A stretch of DNA of 64,000 nucleotides, from NCBI GenBank assembly GCA_020072565.1, contig JAIQGI010000025.1, positions 1 to 64,000 on the forward strand, given 5' to 3'. Positions within the stretch are counted from its first letter, which is position 1; each line of letters starts with the position of its first letter. The DNA comes from Terriglobia bacterium (GTDB taxonomy: Bacteria > Acidobacteriota > UBA6911). Of the stretch, positions 31,195 through 39,354 are shown piece by piece. The position numbers and the translations under genes were made by a program. Under the pieces are notes generated by a model. The model saw only the letters and a program-made list of their open reading frames with translations, was not told the origin of the DNA and did not search any database.

Positions 31195-32337
31195 TTATTG
31201 CTTTGGGGACTTCGTGGTTTGACTGGTTGGTGGTTCTGAGTTTTGGGTTGGCTCTTTTTCAGAACCGAGCCAGCCCTTTCTGCGGAAGTAATACAGCAGG
31301 CCGATCGCAACCAGAGCCATGAGACCCAGCGCATAGGGATAGCCCAACGCCCATTTGAGTTCGGGAATGTCGAAATTCATTCCGTAAATGCCGGCGATGA
31401 AGGACAGGGGGATAAATATCGCGGCAAACATCGTCAGCACCTTCATGATCTCGTTGGTCCGGTTGCCGAGGCTGGACAGATAGACTTCCATCAGGCTCGA
31501 AGCCACATCCCGATAGTTTTCCAGCAAATCGATGATCTGCACCGTGTGGTCGTAGCAGTCGCGCAGGTAGATGCGCGTCTCATCCGAGATCAGAGGAAGA
31601 GGGTCCCGGCATAGGGCGTTCACCGCTTCGCGCAACGGCCAAACTGTCCGGCGGAGAGTGAGCAGGGCATATCTCATCTCGTGAATCTGCCTGATGAATC
31701 GTTTTTCAGGCTGCGCGACGACCGCGTCTTCGATGACTTCCAGTGTTTCCCCGTACTTTTCCAGCACTGGAAAGTACCAGTCGATGGTGGCGTCGATCAG
31801 GGCATAGGCCAGATGGTCGGGACCGGCGAGGCGGAGGCGGCCCGTATCCTTCCGGATGCGTTCGCGCACGGGATCAAAATAACTGCCGGTTCGTTCCTGG
31901 AAGGTCAGCAGGTAATTTTTGCCGAGAAAGATGCTCAACTGCTCGGATGAGTACGCCTCTTCGGCGTTGATGGCGCGGACCACGATGAAGCAGTTGTCTT
32001 TGAATTGGTCTACCTTCGCCCTCTGATGAACGTTGAGCACGTCCTCCAGCGCCAACCGATGCAGGTTAAAAATCTCGCCCACTTTGGTGATCACGGAAAC
32101 ATCGCCCAATCCCATCACGCTGACCCACGTCACCGGCCATTCGCGCAAGAATGACCGGATGCTGTGAACGTCGTCTATGTCTTGTTCGAGCACCTTTTCC
32201 GGACTGTATGCCATCACCTGGATGACCGGCTTGGGCGCCTGCGGATCGACAATCAGAGTTCCGGGTGCGCTCCCGGGCAAGGATCTGCGGGGAAAAGCCG
32301 GTGCTGAAATCCTGTGTCTGCGGTGCTTGCGCGACAT
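31195..32337 (-). CDS. corA: CorA-type magnesium/cobalt channel
   Basis: 380 residues. The cytosolic funnel domain fills residues 1-310 (VSVMGLGDVSVITKVGEIFNLHRLALEDVLN; long helices with EVYLSSLGNRTNEIMKVLT). Two C-terminal membrane helices carry the signature FIAGIYGMNFD, with the GMN motif that forms the pore entrance, and the Lys/Arg-rich tail follows. It conducts Mg2+ (possibly Co2+) into the cell along the membrane potential. Converges with the dipeptidase gene 22 bases away. Confidence 0.95.
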   Translation of the reverse strand: MSRKHRRHRISAPAFPRRSLPGSAPGTLIVDPQAPKPVIQVMAYSPEKVLEQDIDDVHSIRSFLREWPVTWVSVMGLGDVSVITKVGEIFNLHRLALEDVLNVHQRAKVDQFKDNCFIVVRAINAEEAYSSEQLSIFLGKNYLLTFQERTGSYFDPVRERIRKDTGRLRLAGPDHLAYALIDATIDWYFPVLEKYGETLEVIEDAVVAQPEKRFIRQIHEMRYALLTLRRTVWPLREAVNALCRDPLPLISDETRIYLRDCYDHTVQIIDLLENYRDVASSLMEVYLSSLGNRTNEIMKVLTMFAAIFIPLSFIAGIYGMNFDIPELKWALGYPYALGLMALVAIGLLYYFRRKGWLGSEKEPTQNSEPPTSQTTKSPKQ

Positions 32338-33980: not shown

Positions 33981-34502
33981 ATGCTGGATAGAGGATTGGG
34001 GAGCACAGCGGTTTTAGCTCTGGTGCTTATTTGTGTTCTACTCATCCCGGGAGCCGCCACCGAGGGTTCGGGACAGATACCGAGGGAACCTGTCAAGTGG
34101 TCCATCAAAGCCACGCTCCCTGACAAACCGCTCAAGCCGGGTGATAAACTCACCCTGCAGCTGACGGCAAAAATCGAGGAGGGCTGGCATCTCTATGCCA
34201 CGGATCAGGCAGAAGGAGGGCCGACACCGACACGCATCGTGGTGCCATCGGATCAGTCGTTTGAACAGGCGGGCACGATCGAATCCTCAGAACCCAAGTC
34301 TGCGATGGATCCGAACTTCAATCTCATGACCGAATACTATGAAGGGCAGGCCGCCTTCACGATCCCGGTGAAGGTGGCGGCAACCGCAACTGCCGGCAAG
34401 TCGGAGGTAAGAGTCAACGTGAGCTTCCAGACCTGCAATGAGGAGCTTTGCCTGCCGCCCAAAACAGTGAAGCTTGCCCTCGAAGTCAACCTCACGCGTT
34501 GA
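33981..34502 (+). CDS. Free-standing DsbD N-terminal-like domain, exported
   Basis: 173 residues. A signal sequence (TAVLALVLICVLLIPGAA) is followed by a single immunoglobulin-like domain matching the periplasmic N-terminal domain of DsbD (VKWSIKATLPDKPLKPGDKLTLQL; EEGWHLYATDQAEGGPTPTRI). The redox pair is present as SFQTCNEELCLPP (Cys-x4-Cys). In DsbD this domain passes electrons to periplasmic partners; here the membrane and thioredoxin parts are absent. It may receive electrons from a separate CcdA-type protein elsewhere. aggtaaag-type ribosome binding site upstream. Confidence 0.88.
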   Translation: MLDRGLGSTAVLALVLICVLLIPGAATEGSGQIPREPVKWSIKATLPDKPLKPGDKLTLQLTAKIEEGWHLYATDQAEGGPTPTRIVVPSDQSFEQAGTIESSEPKSAMDPNFNLMTEYYEGQAAFTIPVKVAATATAGKSEVRVNVSFQTCNEELCLPPKTVKLALEVNLTR

Positions 34503-34631: not shown

Positions 34632-35516
34632 TCACTCGGGACGGCAATGGCGGCACGGGCGGAAGCCCGCTGCCCTCGCGTTCGCACCACTTGCGAGCAA
34701 GACACGGTTCCGGACCTGCACGCGGCGCGCGTCGCGGCAGGTTGGAAAACAAAAAATGCCGGTGCTCTTGCAGCCGATGTAACGTATGCCCTCGTTTGCA
34801 TACTTCTCAAGTTCGTCCACCGGCACCCCTTCGCGCGCAAGCAGGGCTCGTTTGAGCGACGTGCCGAACGCATATCGGCCGATGCCGCCTGCCGCGGGAA
34901 CCACCCGGTGACAAGGCAGGAGAAGCGGTACGGGATTGTGCGCCATCGTGTTCCCGACCGCCCGAACCGCTCTGGGCCTGCCGGCCTCACGCGCCAGCCA
35001 GCTGTAGGGGCGTACTTCGCCGCGGGGAATCTGCCGCAAGAGCGTCAGAACCGTCTGCTCGAAAGCCGAGAGTCTGGACAAATCCACGCGTACGGTCGGA
35101 GGAGGGTTGCCCGTCGCCGCCGACTTTACGGCACGGGCATAGGATTCGGGAAGTTCCCCTCGGAGAGGCCGCCCGCCCAATCGCTTCCGGTACAGGTCCT
35201 CGAAGGATGAGGAGTCGCTTCCGCCCAGGTCCACCATCGTCACACCGTGAGCATTAAATCCCACCCAGAGCCTGCCGAGATCCGTTTCTACCGAGGAGTA
35301 ACGCTCGCCAGCTCTTTCTTGCACATGCGCGAGGATGCCGGACGGAGCCCTGACCTGCAGCCAGCCCAAATCCGCTGCCAATTCTCCAATTCCGGCCAGC
35401 TCGCGGGTGCACTCCGGGCATTGAGACAGGTGCGCGAGAACCTCTGCCTGCTCGGCCCGCTTCAATTCGCCGGTGCGGAAAACATCCAGTCGTTTCAATA
35501 CTGCATCACAGCGCAT
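34632..35516 (-). CDS. Anti-sigma zinc finger - O6-methylguanine methyltransferase - Ada Zn domain fusion
   Basis: 294 residues in one uninterrupted frame. Residues 1-45 form a putative anti-sigma zinc finger (zf-HC2/ZAS) with Cys3, His29, Cys33 and Cys36 (HLSQCPEC). Residues 70-232 are a methylated-DNA-protein-cysteine methyltransferase: an N-terminal beta domain, then FEQTVLTLLRQIPRGEV, the DNA-binding segment with Arg185 (RAVRAVGNTMAHNPVP), the methyl-acceptor Cys202 in LLLPCHRVVPAAGGIGRY and Glu229 in LLAREG. Residues 244-294 match the Ada N-terminal phosphotriester-repair domain, with all four Zn cysteines (STGIFCFPTCRDARR, GFRPCRHCRP; Cys256, 260, 288, 291); Cys256 is the equivalent of E. 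coli Ada Cys38. Compared with Ada the order is reversed and no AraC HTH is present. It overlaps the 3' end of the ECF sigma gene by 11 bases, so the two are co-translated. Inferred role: alkylation-sensitive anti-sigma factor. Confidence 0.9.
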   Translation of the reverse strand: MRCDAVLKRLDVFRTGELKRAEQAEVLAHLSQCPECTRELAGIGELAADLGWLQVRAPSGILAHVQERAGERYSSVETDLGRLWVGFNAHGVTMVDLGGSDSSSFEDLYRKRLGGRPLRGELPESYARAVKSAATGNPPPTVRVDLSRLSAFEQTVLTLLRQIPRGEVRPYSWLAREAGRPRAVRAVGNTMAHNPVPLLLPCHRVVPAAGGIGRYAFGTSLKRALLAREGVPVDELEKYANEGIRYIGCKSTGIFCFPTCRDARRVQVRNRVLLASGANARAAGFRPCRHCRPE

Positions 35517-36093
35517 TTCTGCCTCCGCTCTTTGTCAGAGTCGTGCGCAATTTACGCAGAGCGCGGAACACCTTGCCCCGCACGGAAGTTTCGCCGGACC
35601 CAACGATGGCCGCGATTTCGGCGTAGGACAGCTCTTCCATGAATCTGAGCACCACCAGATCGCGCGCTTCGCGGTCAAGACGATCCAGCGCCGACTGCAA
35701 AGCCCTGCGCTTCTCCCCCGTCTCCAGATTCCGGATCCCTTCAGCTGCTGGGCCTGAACCGGATGCCTGCGCCTCGACGGAATCCTCGACAGAAACCTCT
35801 CTCCTCACCCGTCGCCTGCGGCATCGCGTGAATGCCAGGTTGCGGGTGATGCGGAACAGCCAGGGCCCCAATTCGAGATTGCGGCACATCGGCTCATCAT
35901 AGCGTTTGGTAAGTGCGTCGCAGGCGCGCATGAATGCGTCCTGGGTCACCTCCCGTGCATCGAAGGGATCGCGAAGCAAACGCAACGCATAGCTGTAGAG
36001 CCGATCCTGGTAGTTTCGGACCAGACGTTCCACGGCCCCGTCTGCGTTTCGATGCACTGCCAGTGCCAGATTGTCGAGCTTGCCGCCGGTCAC
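35506..36093 (-). CDS. ECF-type RNA polymerase sigma factor
   Basis: 195 residues, typical of group 4 sigma factors. Region 2 spans about residues 20-90 (RLVRNYQDRLYSYALRLLRD, REVTQDAFMRACDAL, GPWLFRITRNLAFTRCRRRR) and region 4 about 130-185 (ALDRLDREARDLVVLRFMEELSYAEIAAIVG, then the HTH end GETSVRGKVFRALRKLR). Start is GTG at 36093 with gggagg 4 bases upstream; the in-frame stop lies inside the downstream anti-sigma/Ada gene. It should direct RNA polymerase to an alkylation-stress regulon if the partner works as proposed; that is inference from the gene pair. Confidence 0.93.
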   Translation of the reverse strand: MTGGKLDNLALAVHRNADGAVERLVRNYQDRLYSYALRLLRDPFDAREVTQDAFMRACDALTKRYDEPMCRNLELGPWLFRITRNLAFTRCRRRRVRREVSVEDSVEAQASGSGPAAEGIRNLETGEKRRALQSALDRLDREARDLVVLRFMEELSYAEIAAIVGSGETSVRGKVFRALRKLRTTLTKSGGRNAL

Positions 36094-36131: not shown

Positions 36132-36158
36132 AACACGGCCGCCTGTGCTTCCGTTCGC
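36132..36158 (-). promoter_or_regulatory. Putative ECF-type promoter of the sigma/anti-sigma pair
   Basis: On the minus strand GCGAAC (36158-36153) and CGTGTT (36137-36132) are separated by 15 bases, resembling the GGAAC / CGTY layout of ECF-dependent promoters. Transcription would start about 30 bases before the GTG at 36093. If real it would give positive autoregulation. Short motifs like this occur by chance, so support is modest. Confidence 0.35.
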
Positions 36159-36657: not shown

Positions 36658-37713
36658 TTAACCCCAGATGTCACCGACCGTGAATCCTTCCGGAAACGGA
36701 TCTTCGGGATCGACGACATAGGTGCAGAGTCCCGTGATCCATGCTTGCCCGCTGAGGGTTGGTATGACCGCCTGGTACTTGCCGACCTGGGTCACTCCGG
36801 TCAGACGGCCGGTGAAGATCGTGCCCAGGATCCCTTCGTGGCAAAAGTCCTCGTTCAGTCCCAGCTTGCCCCTGGCATAGAGCGTCGCCATTTTCGCGCA
36901 GGTGCCGGTGCCGCATGGTGAGCGATCGATGGCGCCGGTCCAGGTGGCCGGGCGGTTCCAGTCGAGTTTACCCGTGGAGACCGTCACGGCATTCTTCATA
37001 TGAGCTTCCGGACGGGTCGGAGGCGCGGAGAGTTCCGCAATCGTGATCCCGGAAAAGCCGGGCTGCTCGGGATGCACCACCGGCAACTGTTCCTGGGCCG
37101 CTGCCTTGATCATCTCGCTGATGCGGACTATGTCCCGTCCTTCATCGGGCGTCAGGCGCAGCCCGAACGGGGCCGCCTCGGCGATGACATAGAACATGCC
37201 GCCATACGCAACATCCACGGTTGCGGTCCCGAGGTGCGGAACCTCGATGCGCGCATCCAGGTAGGCCGCAAACGCCGGCACATTTTGAAAAGTGACGCGC
37301 TCGACTTTGCCGTTGGCACAGTCTGCCCGGACCCGGATCAATCCCGCCGGGGATTCCAGCATCAACTCCGTGACCGGTTCCCGCATCGGCAGCATCCCGG
37401 TTTCGAGCAAGACCGTAGTGACACAGATGGTATTCGTCCCCGACATGCCGGGATACTCCACCTGTTCCATGATGACAAAGCCGGCATCGGCGCCGGGGTG
37501 CGTGGGTGGCAGGATCAGATTGCAGTTTGCGGCCGGATATCCGCGCGGCTCGCGCAACATGCGCTTGCGCAAGCCGTCCATGTGCGTCTGGAGATAACGC
37601 ATCTTGTCGAACATGGTGGCTCCCGGGACATCGAGCACGCCCCCGACAATTACCCTTCCGGGTTCCCCACACGCATGGGCATCAACGGCTTGAATCATAT
37701 TGGCAAGGCGCAT
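36658..37713 (-). CDS. Proline racemase family enzyme (Ser/Cys type; hydroxyproline epimerase or dehydratase)
   Basis: 351 residues from the ATG at 37713, chosen because gggagaag lies just upstream. Family landmarks: VDAHACGEPGRVIVGGV, RGYPAANCNLILPP, the first catalytic site GMSGTNTICVTT and the second DRSPCGTGTCAKMA. In proline racemase and 4-hydroxyproline epimerase the first site has Cys; here it is Ser91, paired with Cys267. Trans-3-hydroxyproline dehydratases carry Thr/Cys, and Ser/Cys members have been described with mixed activity, so plain proline racemase is unlikely. It is divergent from a secreted C45-like hydrolase, hinting at hydroxyproline or peptide salvage. Confidence 0.9.
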   Translation of the reverse strand: MRLANMIQAVDAHACGEPGRVIVGGVLDVPGATMFDKMRYLQTHMDGLRKRMLREPRGYPAANCNLILPPTHPGADAGFVIMEQVEYPGMSGTNTICVTTVLLETGMLPMREPVTELMLESPAGLIRVRADCANGKVERVTFQNVPAFAAYLDARIEVPHLGTATVDVAYGGMFYVIAEAAPFGLRLTPDEGRDIVRISEMIKAAAQEQLPVVHPEQPGFSGITIAELSAPPTRPEAHMKNAVTVSTGKLDWNRPATWTGAIDRSPCGTGTCAKMATLYARGKLGLNEDFCHEGILGTIFTGRLTGVTQVGKYQAVIPTLSGQAWITGLCTYVVDPEDPFPEGFTVGDIWG

Positions 37714-37786
37714 GCTCTTCTCCCTTCTCTTAAACCTGCGCGATCGAACGCGCATTATCCTACCCCCGATTGCAGGCCGATTGCTA

Positions 37787-37858
37787 CCGGGCACAACGGG
37801 GGACAGAATTAGGGTGATTGGCCGCGAAAATGTATAATCGCATGACCATTGTGCCCGG
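37787..37858. promoter_or_regulatory. Perfect 10-bp inverted repeat flanking a TATAAT, divergent control region
   Basis: CCGGGCACAA (37787-37796) and TTGTGCCCGG (37849-37858) are exact reverse complements, 52 bases apart, and the match extends to CCGGGCACAAYGG on both sides with one difference. Between them lies TATAAT at 37833-37838 on the plus strand, about 100 bases before the C45-like gene; no good -35 is seen. The layout suggests paired operators for looping repression of the divergent racemase and hydrolase genes, or a stem in a long leader. Confidence 0.5.
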
Positions 37859-37935
37859 ATGAATTAGAATAGGGTTTATCCAGTACAGGCCAAGAAAAGA
37901 CAGGAGTGGGTAGCGCCCATGGCGCCGGAGGAATC

Positions 37936-39354
37936 ATGCACGGAAAAATTGTCGCTCTGTTCTGCCTGCTGTTCACGATCGTCGCGATCGCATCGTTCCC
38001 ACAGGAGCAGAAGGCCGACCCACGCTTGAAAAAATCCTTCCGGCGCCCCGAGGCAAATGGCTGGACATTCGTGCACCTGGAGGGGACCCCGTCCGAAATC
38101 GGCTACCAGCACGGACATCTGCTGGCCGCGGAGATCCTTGACATGAAAAAGCTCGCCGAGCTCGAATTGAAGCACGGCAGCGAGAAAAACTGGGCGTTTT
38201 TCCGGGGCGCCGCCCGCGACATGATGTGGCCGCGCATCGAGCAGCAGTACCGCGACGAACTTCAGGGGATCACCGACGGCGTCAACGCCCGCGGAGTCAA
38301 GCTTGATCTGTGGGACATCGTCGCCATGAACGGGCTGCTCGAGTGGGATTACTACGTGAAGGAGTACAACAAGCAGCGCAAGATCCCTTCCCCAGACTCC
38401 CTGGGCAAGGCGGAGCGCTGCAGCGCCTTCGTCGCCACGGGCAGCTACACCAAAGACGGCAAGGTCATCATCGCCCACAACAACTGGACGAGTTACATGG
38501 AAGGCAGGCGGTGGACCATCGTCTTCGACATCGCTCCGGCCAAGGGTTACCGTATCCTGATGGATGGTCTCCCGGGATTCATATCGAGCGACGACGATTT
38601 CGGCGTGAACTCGGCCGGTATCATGATCACCGAGACCACGATCAGCGACTTTGAAGGCTATGACCCGGGCGGCATGCCGGAGTTTGTCCGGGCACGCAGG
38701 GCAATGCAGTACTCCACGTCCATCGACGACTTTGCCCGCATCATGAAAGAAGGCAACAACGGCGGCTACGCCAACGACTGGCTGATTGCCGACCGGAAGA
38801 CCAACGAGATCGCCAGCCTCGAACTGGGCCTGAGAAATGTGACGCTCGAGCACAAAAAGGACGGCTATTTTGTGGGCGCCAATTTCCCTATTAACCCCAA
38901 GCTGACGCGCGAGGAGACAAAGTTCGACACCAAAGACATGGGCAACAGCCAGAATGCACGGCACGCGCGCTGGGAACAGCTGATGGCCGAGAACAAGGGG
39001 AAAATCGACGTGGCGGCCGCCCAGCGCTTCCTGGCCGATCATTACGATACCTACGAGAAAAAGATTAACCCGAGTGAGCGCACCCTCTGCGGCCACATTG
39101 ATCTCTCCCCGCGCGGCTTGGGAAGCTGGCAGCTTCCTTACGGGGCCGCCGGTGCGGTGCAAAACAAGGTCGCTGATGCCACCATGGCGGAGCGCATGTC
39201 ATTCACGGCAGCCGCCGGCCACGCCTGCGGCACCCACTTCCAGGCAGCAGCACACCTGAAGGCGCATCCGGAGTTCGACTGGGAAAAGGAATTCCTCAAA
39301 GACATGCTCGCGCACCCTTGGACCGTCTTTGAAGCCGCCCGGGACGGGCGCTAG
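37936..39354 (+). CDS. Secreted C45-like (Ntn) acyltransferase/peptidase
   Basis: 472 residues from the ATG at 37936, preceded by ggagg. A signal sequence (KIVALFCLLFTIVAIASF) is followed by EGTPSEIGYQHGHLLAAEI, IEQQYRDELQGITDGVNARG and the predicted nucleophile segment ERCSAFVATGSYTKDGKVIIAHNN with Cys162. This matches the C45 / phospholipase B-like Ntn group, in which an internal cleavage exposes the Cys. Substrates in the group range from N-acyl amino acids to beta-lactams; none can be fixed here. It likely acts in the periplasm. Confidence 0.85.
   Translation: MHGKIVALFCLLFTIVAIASFPQEQKADPRLKKSFRRPEANGWTFVHLEGTPSEIGYQHGHLLAAEILDMKKLAELELKHGSEKNWAFFRGAARDMMWPRIEQQYRDELQGITDGVNARGVKLDLWDIVAMNGLLEWDYYVKEYNKQRKIPSPDSLGKAERCSAFVATGSYTKDGKVIIAHNNWTSYMEGRRWTIVFDIAPAKGYRILMDGLPGFISSDDDFGVNSAGIMITETTISDFEGYDPGGMPEFVRARRAMQYSTSIDDFARIMKEGNNGGYANDWLIADRKTNEIASLELGLRNVTLEHKKDGYFVGANFPINPKLTREETKFDTKDMGNSQNARHARWEQLMAENKGKIDVAAAQRFLADHYDTYEKKINPSERTLCGHIDLSPRGLGSWQLPYGAAGAVQNKVADATMAERMSFTAAAGHACGTHFQAAAHLKAHPEFDWEKEFLKDMLAHPWTVFEAARDGR

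Follow-up and report, generated by a model that had tools for sequence, protein, structure and literature searches.

We describe a two-gene operon, on the reverse strand of the 64,000-nucleotide stretch of DNA that was analysed (hereafter the window), in which an ECF sigma factor is paired with a protein that joins an anti-sigma domain to two DNA-repair domains. The reading we favour, and hold to be rather probable, is that the sigma factor is governed by a cognate anti-sigma factor that is itself a suicide repair enzyme, and that alkylation frees the sigma factor. The gene pair (an ECF sigma factor and a one-use repair protein) is present in many soil bacteria and would provide a ready-made irreversible alkylation sensor made of just two genes and one promoter.

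The repair/anti-sigma fusion protein

The fusion gene (34632..35516, reverse strand) encodes, as the first-pass annotation had claimed, a single frame of 294 residues in which three domains follow one another in the order ZAS-MGMT-AdaZn, with Pfam matches above the curated cut-offs. On the same strand, the zinc anti-sigma domain (ZAS, residues 1-70, 35307..35516) holds the zf-HC2 match (residues 3-36, 25.2 bits), the O6-methylguanine-DNA methyltransferase (MGMT, residues 71-231, 34824..35306) the DNA_binding_1/MGMT match (PF01035, residues 151-231, 101 bits, 3.3e-29) and the Ada-type zinc/phosphotriester-repair domain (Ada-Zn, residues 243-294, 34635..34790) the Ada_Zn_binding match (PF02805, 46 bits, 5.1e-12). 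The AlphaFold model of the full protein, built with 52 homologues, had a mean pLDDT of 94.7, and homologues of solved structure exist for every domain, among them 1sfe (E. coli Ada-C) for MGMT (33% identity, TMt 0.81, 2.5e-21) and 1u8b for Ada-Zn (45% identity, 1.8 Å over 51 columns). Both the full-length homologues and the conservation of a neighbouring ECF gene exclude a chance origin of the fusion. The Pfam search of the protein found no HTH_18 or other AraC-type helix-turn-helix. Nevertheless, the earlier statement that the design lacks any DNA-binding module was too strong, since each of the repair domains, MGMT and Ada-Zn, contacts DNA (by their homologues 1sfe and 1u8b); the module that the protein lacks is the AraC helix-turn-helix, which is sequence-specific. 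In the genome of the window the fusion was the sole Ada-Zn protein found, and the genome accordingly yielded no regulator of the E. coli Ada or AdaA type.

Conservation was assessed in 11 full-length homologues from four acidobacterial families (42-59% identity over the full length). The methyltransferase centre previously read as intact (PCHRVV, Arg185, Glu229) was confirmed: Y171, R185, N194, P201-C202-H203-R204, G213, Y215 and E229 are invariant among them and also in a 52-sequence set including relatives without ZAS. The four zinc cysteines previously assigned to the Ada type (C256, C260, C288 and C291) are likewise invariant in the 11 homologues and align with C38, C42, C69 and C72 of E. 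coli Ada; among the 52 sequences C256 was present in all, and C260, C288 and C291 each in at least 90%. The methyl acceptors are Cys202 in the MGMT domain (codon 34911-34913, with R185 and E229 alongside) and Cys256 in the Ada-Zn domain (codon 34749-34751, with C260, C288 and C291). Judged from these intact active sites, methyl transfer by the 294-residue protein is very likely.

The HxxxCxxC finger, which had been taken to be of anti-sigma type, was upheld both by sequence profile and by fold. Its zinc motif reads H29-x3-C33-x2-C36, and Cys3, a residue that had not been listed before, is invariant alongside it in 15 homologues and is the likely fourth zinc ligand (C3/H29/C33/C36, spacing 26/4/3). 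The domain was modelled on its own, as the PDB list of the full-length model was filled by MGMT and N-Ada. In the AlphaFold model of residues 1-70 alone it consists of four helices (about 3-15, 20-32, 34-53 and 61-69), and all 12 of its 12 best Foldseek matches were anti-sigma domains (RslA, MucA, RsiW, RskA). VIA-align returned Z scores of 6.0-7.3 against RsiW, MucA, ChrR, RslA and RskA (7.3 for RsiW, 6.3 for ChrR), while the three best PDB chains in the profile search were RsiW (0.0018), DdvA (0.0023) and RslA (0.0056). The best scores of the domain alone are modest (profile E 0.002, Foldseek E 0.19) because it is small. Sequence profile and predicted fold both identify the finger as a true anti-sigma domain; fold and operon together make sigma binding by the 294-residue protein likely.

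Operon architecture, promoter and distribution

The sigma gene (35506..36093, reverse strand, GTG start) encodes 195 residues with Sigma70_r2 and r4_2 domains (Pfam, above the curated cut-offs) and a TIGR02937 match (4e-26). A GGGAGG Shine-Dalgarno-like stretch precedes its GTG start, and GGAGG lies 5 nt ahead of the anti-sigma ATG. The 11-base overlap between the end of the sigma gene and the beginning of the anti-sigma gene that had been noted earlier follows from the ORF coordinates (35506..35516, reverse strand); it recurs in homologues (L006, L007/L036, L011, L039, L009/L040 and L041) and constitutes translational coupling.

The pair is flanked by genes for a protein with a DsbD N-terminal domain (33981-34502, forward strand) and a proline racemase (36658-37794, reverse strand), and as a congener contig (L033) carries the same two neighbours, local synteny is preserved in the genus. 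Further neighbours in the window are ordinary, namely a peptidase C69 (29502-31172, forward), a CorA transporter (31195-32337, reverse) and a phospholipase B/acyltransferase-like protein (37906-39354, forward). In several acidobacterial genomes a gene for a SpoIIE-type PP2C phosphatase (PF07228, E around 1e-40) was observed 3' of the sigma/anti-sigma pair (ZAS-bearing loci L006:2352-3122, L036:2563-3264, L039:1909-2610 and L040:5944-6762) and is possibly an extra regulatory layer; no such gene was found behind the pair in the window's genus.

Lying 38 bp ahead of the sigma start is a predicted ECF-type promoter (CGAACGGAAGCACAGGCGGCCGTGTT, 36132..36157, reverse strand) with a CGAAC -35 and a GTGTT -10 element (AAC-N17-TGTT). 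A count of two-box patterns ahead of 91 sigma genes, made without prior bias, returned GCAAC-N17-TGTT as the top motif (41 vs 0 in shuffles), and once the acidobacterial variant CGAAC-N17-TGTT was added, a site was present in 56 of the 91 upstream regions, against 0.35 expected from shuffles. The motif is common to the branches with and without ZAS, and its pattern gave 25 sites among the matches listed vs 1 for a backwards-pattern control. A conserved ECF-type promoter before the sigma gene implies that the operon drives its own transcription; autoregulation from this predicted promoter is, going by the sequence patterns, almost certain.

Other fusions of MGMT and Ada-Zn beside ECF genes, which the first-pass annotation had suggested seeking, were found in many named loci from several phyla. 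Named genomes of Acidobacteriota, Chloroflexota, Actinomycetota and other groups were scanned, and of the 80 best MGMT-then-AdaZn loci that were kept, 78 have a co-directional ECF gene immediately 5' of the MGMT-AdaZn gene; the two others start within 60 bp of a contig end. None of eight control loci (L025-L032, canonical Ada or other MGMT) had an adjoining sigma gene. The genes of the 96 ECF/MGMT-AdaZn pairs gathered overlap, for the most part, by 11 bp where ZAS is present and by 4 bp in the wider branch. Cultured carriers among the Actinomycetota include Thermobifida fusca, Pseudonocardia dioxanivorans and Nonomuraea.

That ZAS is a clade-specific feature had been missed at first; most of the wider ECF and MGMT-AdaZn family is without it. 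The domain is limited to Acidobacteriota and a single Zixibacteria MAG; its carriers make up one clade (SH-aLRT 100, in a quick tree) placed among Chloroflexota, Actinomycetota and Dormiibacterota without ZAS (in a tree whose root is not fixed), a pattern consistent with a single gain. Proteins without ZAS retain the catalytic cysteines and begin with a conserved 'APxxLLxxVLxxxG' helix, which in the alignment corresponds to helix 4 of the anti-sigma domain; matches to ordinary Ada/Ogt typically start past it, at about query residue 70. Placed before MGMT, this helix is probably a common sigma-contacting element, and since most family members are devoid of ZAS, their anti-sigma role either rests on this short helix or is absent. 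Two other acidobacterial families (L014:1335-2135 and L019-L024) were also seen to carry the ECF and MGMT-AdaZn pair without ZAS. In family f27 the form of the pair is deeply diverged (branch length 1.61) and has a different short N-terminus; the standard promoter motif was not found for it.

The constant parts of the family are the ECF sigma factor, MGMT, Ada-Zn and the autoregulatory promoter, and ZAS is the variable one, which bears on an improbable alternative: that ZAS responds to oxidation of its thiols or to loss of zinc, in the manner of RsrA and RshA, and the MGMT-AdaZn part is a mere cargo repair enzyme. The complete Cys-His-Cys-Cys zinc set with its 26/4/3 spacing would suit such redox control, as would the weak profile match to RsrA itself (E 0.91) and the behaviour of many ZAS proteins, which free their sigma factor upon oxidation (PMC8999054). 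However, the constant partner of the sigma factor is MGMT-AdaZn, which Chloroflexota and Actinomycetota keep without ZAS and with a related promoter, and a cargo enzyme need not remain fused or strictly coupled.

A second alternative, to which we assign a similarly low probability, is positive control, in which MGMT-AdaZn would act as a co-activator: methylated Ada-Zn would bind DNA tightly and tether the sigma factor, and the N-terminus would be a handle rather than an inhibitor. Methylated N-Ada does bind DNA (1u8b), both Cada2 and Ada activate transcription by recruiting RNA polymerase (PMC10957082; PMC4437013), and the branch without ZAS has no recognisable anti-sigma domain. Against this stand the clear anti-sigma fold predicted for the window protein (characterised members of such domains inhibit sigma factors) and the two-box count, in which the recurrent upstream element found is a -35/-10-like pair alone.

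Candidate regulon and proposed mechanism

The regulon was probed by pattern search. In the 7.46-Mb genome of the window the promoter is the single exact match, and sites with one mismatch are not enriched (5 vs 14 for the control pattern), so targets besides the operon cannot be claimed in this genome. Exact sites occur in 7 of 9 acidobacterial carriers, mostly at the operon itself. Elsewhere the motif lies ahead of alkA in a Ktedonobacterales genome, and a Thermomicrobiales genome has two such motifs back to back, one before the sigma operon and one before ogt-adaA; alkA lies about 1.8 kb beyond the ogt-adaA promoter. AlkA genes flank the operon at four loci (L044, L045, L046 and L047), and the AlkA_N and HhH-GPD domains were confirmed in the L047 and Ktedonobacterales proteins. 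As a general target alkA was rejected, the alkA loci of 40 + 14 genomes giving 4 loose matches vs 5.4 expected. With alkA in most genomes devoid of the motif and no extra targets in the window genome, a broad alkylation regulon is not supported; the repair targets that stand are the predicted Ktedonobacterales alkA and Thermomicrobiales ogt-adaA(-alkA) promoters only.

Several further arrangements were observed around the motif. At one locus (L074:1-3512; G432:C48, about 8.1 kb) two ECF promoter motifs lie back to back; one strand carries an LLM-type oxidoreductase gene together with the sigma/MGMT-AdaZn pair, the opposite strand ogt-adaA, and contig C115 shows this type of arrangement again, with alkA further down. 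In Nonomuraea and the related [Actinomadura] parvosata the ECF promoter also precedes a gene for a short-chain dehydrogenase. Seven Nonomuraea-type genomes (L123, L127, L129, L144, L158, L160 and L161) have the motif immediately ahead of a short-chain dehydrogenase/reductase gene, and in most of the seven another ECF sigma gene comes next. This dehydrogenase/reductase is a candidate member of the regulon, with no relation to known alkylation repair. Clustering of recurrent neighbours reflected mostly shadow frames and the gene order that Chloroflexota have in common, and the only recurring-looking one was an EamA-type transporter. An EamA/DMT-like gene recurs downstream of the operon in Chloroflexota (L043, L049, L062, L064, L067, L068, L075, L078, L079, L080, L104 and L112), and a similar gene lies within about 0.8 kb of an ECF motif at L148 and L151.

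Confirmed targets being few (in the window genome, the operon alone) and alkA in most genomes not being preceded by the motif, one could argue for mere co-expression, in which sigma activity follows from how the sigma gene itself is transcribed, or from some other signal, while the fused repair protein plays no regulatory part, but this seems quite unlikely in view of the strict linkage over several phyla with 4-11 bp overlaps, the in-frame fusion of the anti-sigma domain and the autoregulation.

We reason that an anti-sigma factor which is itself spent in repair would work as follows. At rest, the four-helix zinc domain (residues 1-70) would bind the sigma factor and keep it off RNA polymerase. 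Upon alkylation damage, MGMT would move the methyl group of O6-methylguanine to Cys202, and Ada-Zn that of methyl-phosphotriesters to Cys256; being irreversible, these transfers would alter the conformation or stability of the protein, which, through allostery or because the spent protein is turned over, would cease to act as an anti-sigma factor. Once free, the sigma factor would transcribe its own operon from the CGAAC-N17-TGTT promoter (in relatives the regulon would also take in alkA or ogt-adaA), until newly made, unmethylated repair/anti-sigma protein builds up and switches the response off. Such a homeostat would sense the depletion of its own repair capacity. Cysteine methylation turns both E. 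coli Ada (C38) and Cada2 (MGMT Cys267) into regulators; a Gly in place of the cysteine imitates methylation in both proteins, and in Cada2 an Ala substitution blocks it (PMC10957082). ChrR, for its part, is built from a ZAS joined to a sensor domain (PMC8999054). By analogy, we infer that methylation of the suicide cysteines would release the sigma factor, and likewise that Cys202 or Cys256 would give the signal.

On a wider scale, there seems to be an even chance that the family makes up a third independent class of alkylation response, spread over several phyla, in which an ECF sigma factor is placed under its own suicide repair protein by ZAS in Acidobacteriota and by a minimal N-terminal helix in Chloroflexota and Actinomycetota. 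If true, this would be a third bacterial way of sensing DNA alkylation, by which the cell gauges the depletion of its repair capacity and restocks it via the sigma promoter.

Relation to known alkylation responses and sigma factor systems

The building blocks are both of known kinds; their wiring is not. To our knowledge, the known methylation-switched regulators of the adaptive response (Ada, AdaA and Cada2) are all promoter-binding transcription factors, whereas here the same methylation chemistry is apparently wired to a sigma/anti-sigma pair. The carriers include Acidobacteriota and Chloroflexota, phyla not displayed in a 2024 survey of such regulators.

With E. coli Ada and AdaA the system shares an Ada-Zn domain with the same four cysteines, suicide methyl transfer and autoregulation, and with Ada also an MGMT domain with PCHR. 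The order of domains differs, being AdaZn-HTH-MGMT in E. coli Ada, whereas in the window protein MGMT is followed by Ada-Zn and the AraC helix-turn-helix was not found. Ada binds promoters, while the window protein would act on a dedicated ECF sigma factor. Cada2 of Caulobacter is likewise an MGMT-domain regulator of an autoregulated alkylation response, with methylation of the PCHR cysteine as its switch, but it has an N-terminal promoter-binding region (B-box/RLHD) and no Ada-Zn (PMC10957082); the window protein has an anti-sigma domain at its N-terminus and a separate ECF sigma gene.

The closest precedent on the sigma factor side is ECF122, for which the passage in a 2022 review (PMC8999054, citing Casas-Pastor et al. 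2021) gives a 6-O-methylguanine DNA methyltransferase in the conserved neighbourhood and an uncharacterised mechanism, describes the group as lacking an anti-sigma factor and mentions no Ada-Zn domain. A neighbouring 6-O-methylguanine methyltransferase is shared by the 96 ECF/MGMT-AdaZn pairs gathered here. The lack of an anti-sigma factor disagrees with the window branch, which has ZAS, and would fit the branch without it; matched against this description, the latter is probably the ECF122 group. Hence, the earlier assertion that no system of this design had been described was overstated, given that ECF122 had already been flagged next to methyltransferases; the part that stands is that a search of the open-access literature gave no description of an Ada/MGMT-type anti-sigma factor, which is weak evidence of novelty. 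The proposed wiring offers a concrete mechanism for an unexplained ECF group.

ChrR, RsrA and RshA share with the window protein an N-terminal ZAS, solubility and a gene adjoining that of the ECF sigma factor, and ChrR shares an additional fused sensor domain as well. They differ in what is sensed and how: the sensor is a cupin or a zinc site in these proteins and a pair of DNA-repair suicide enzymes in the window protein, and while their signal is singlet oxygen or disulfide stress, the signal expected here is DNA alkylation.
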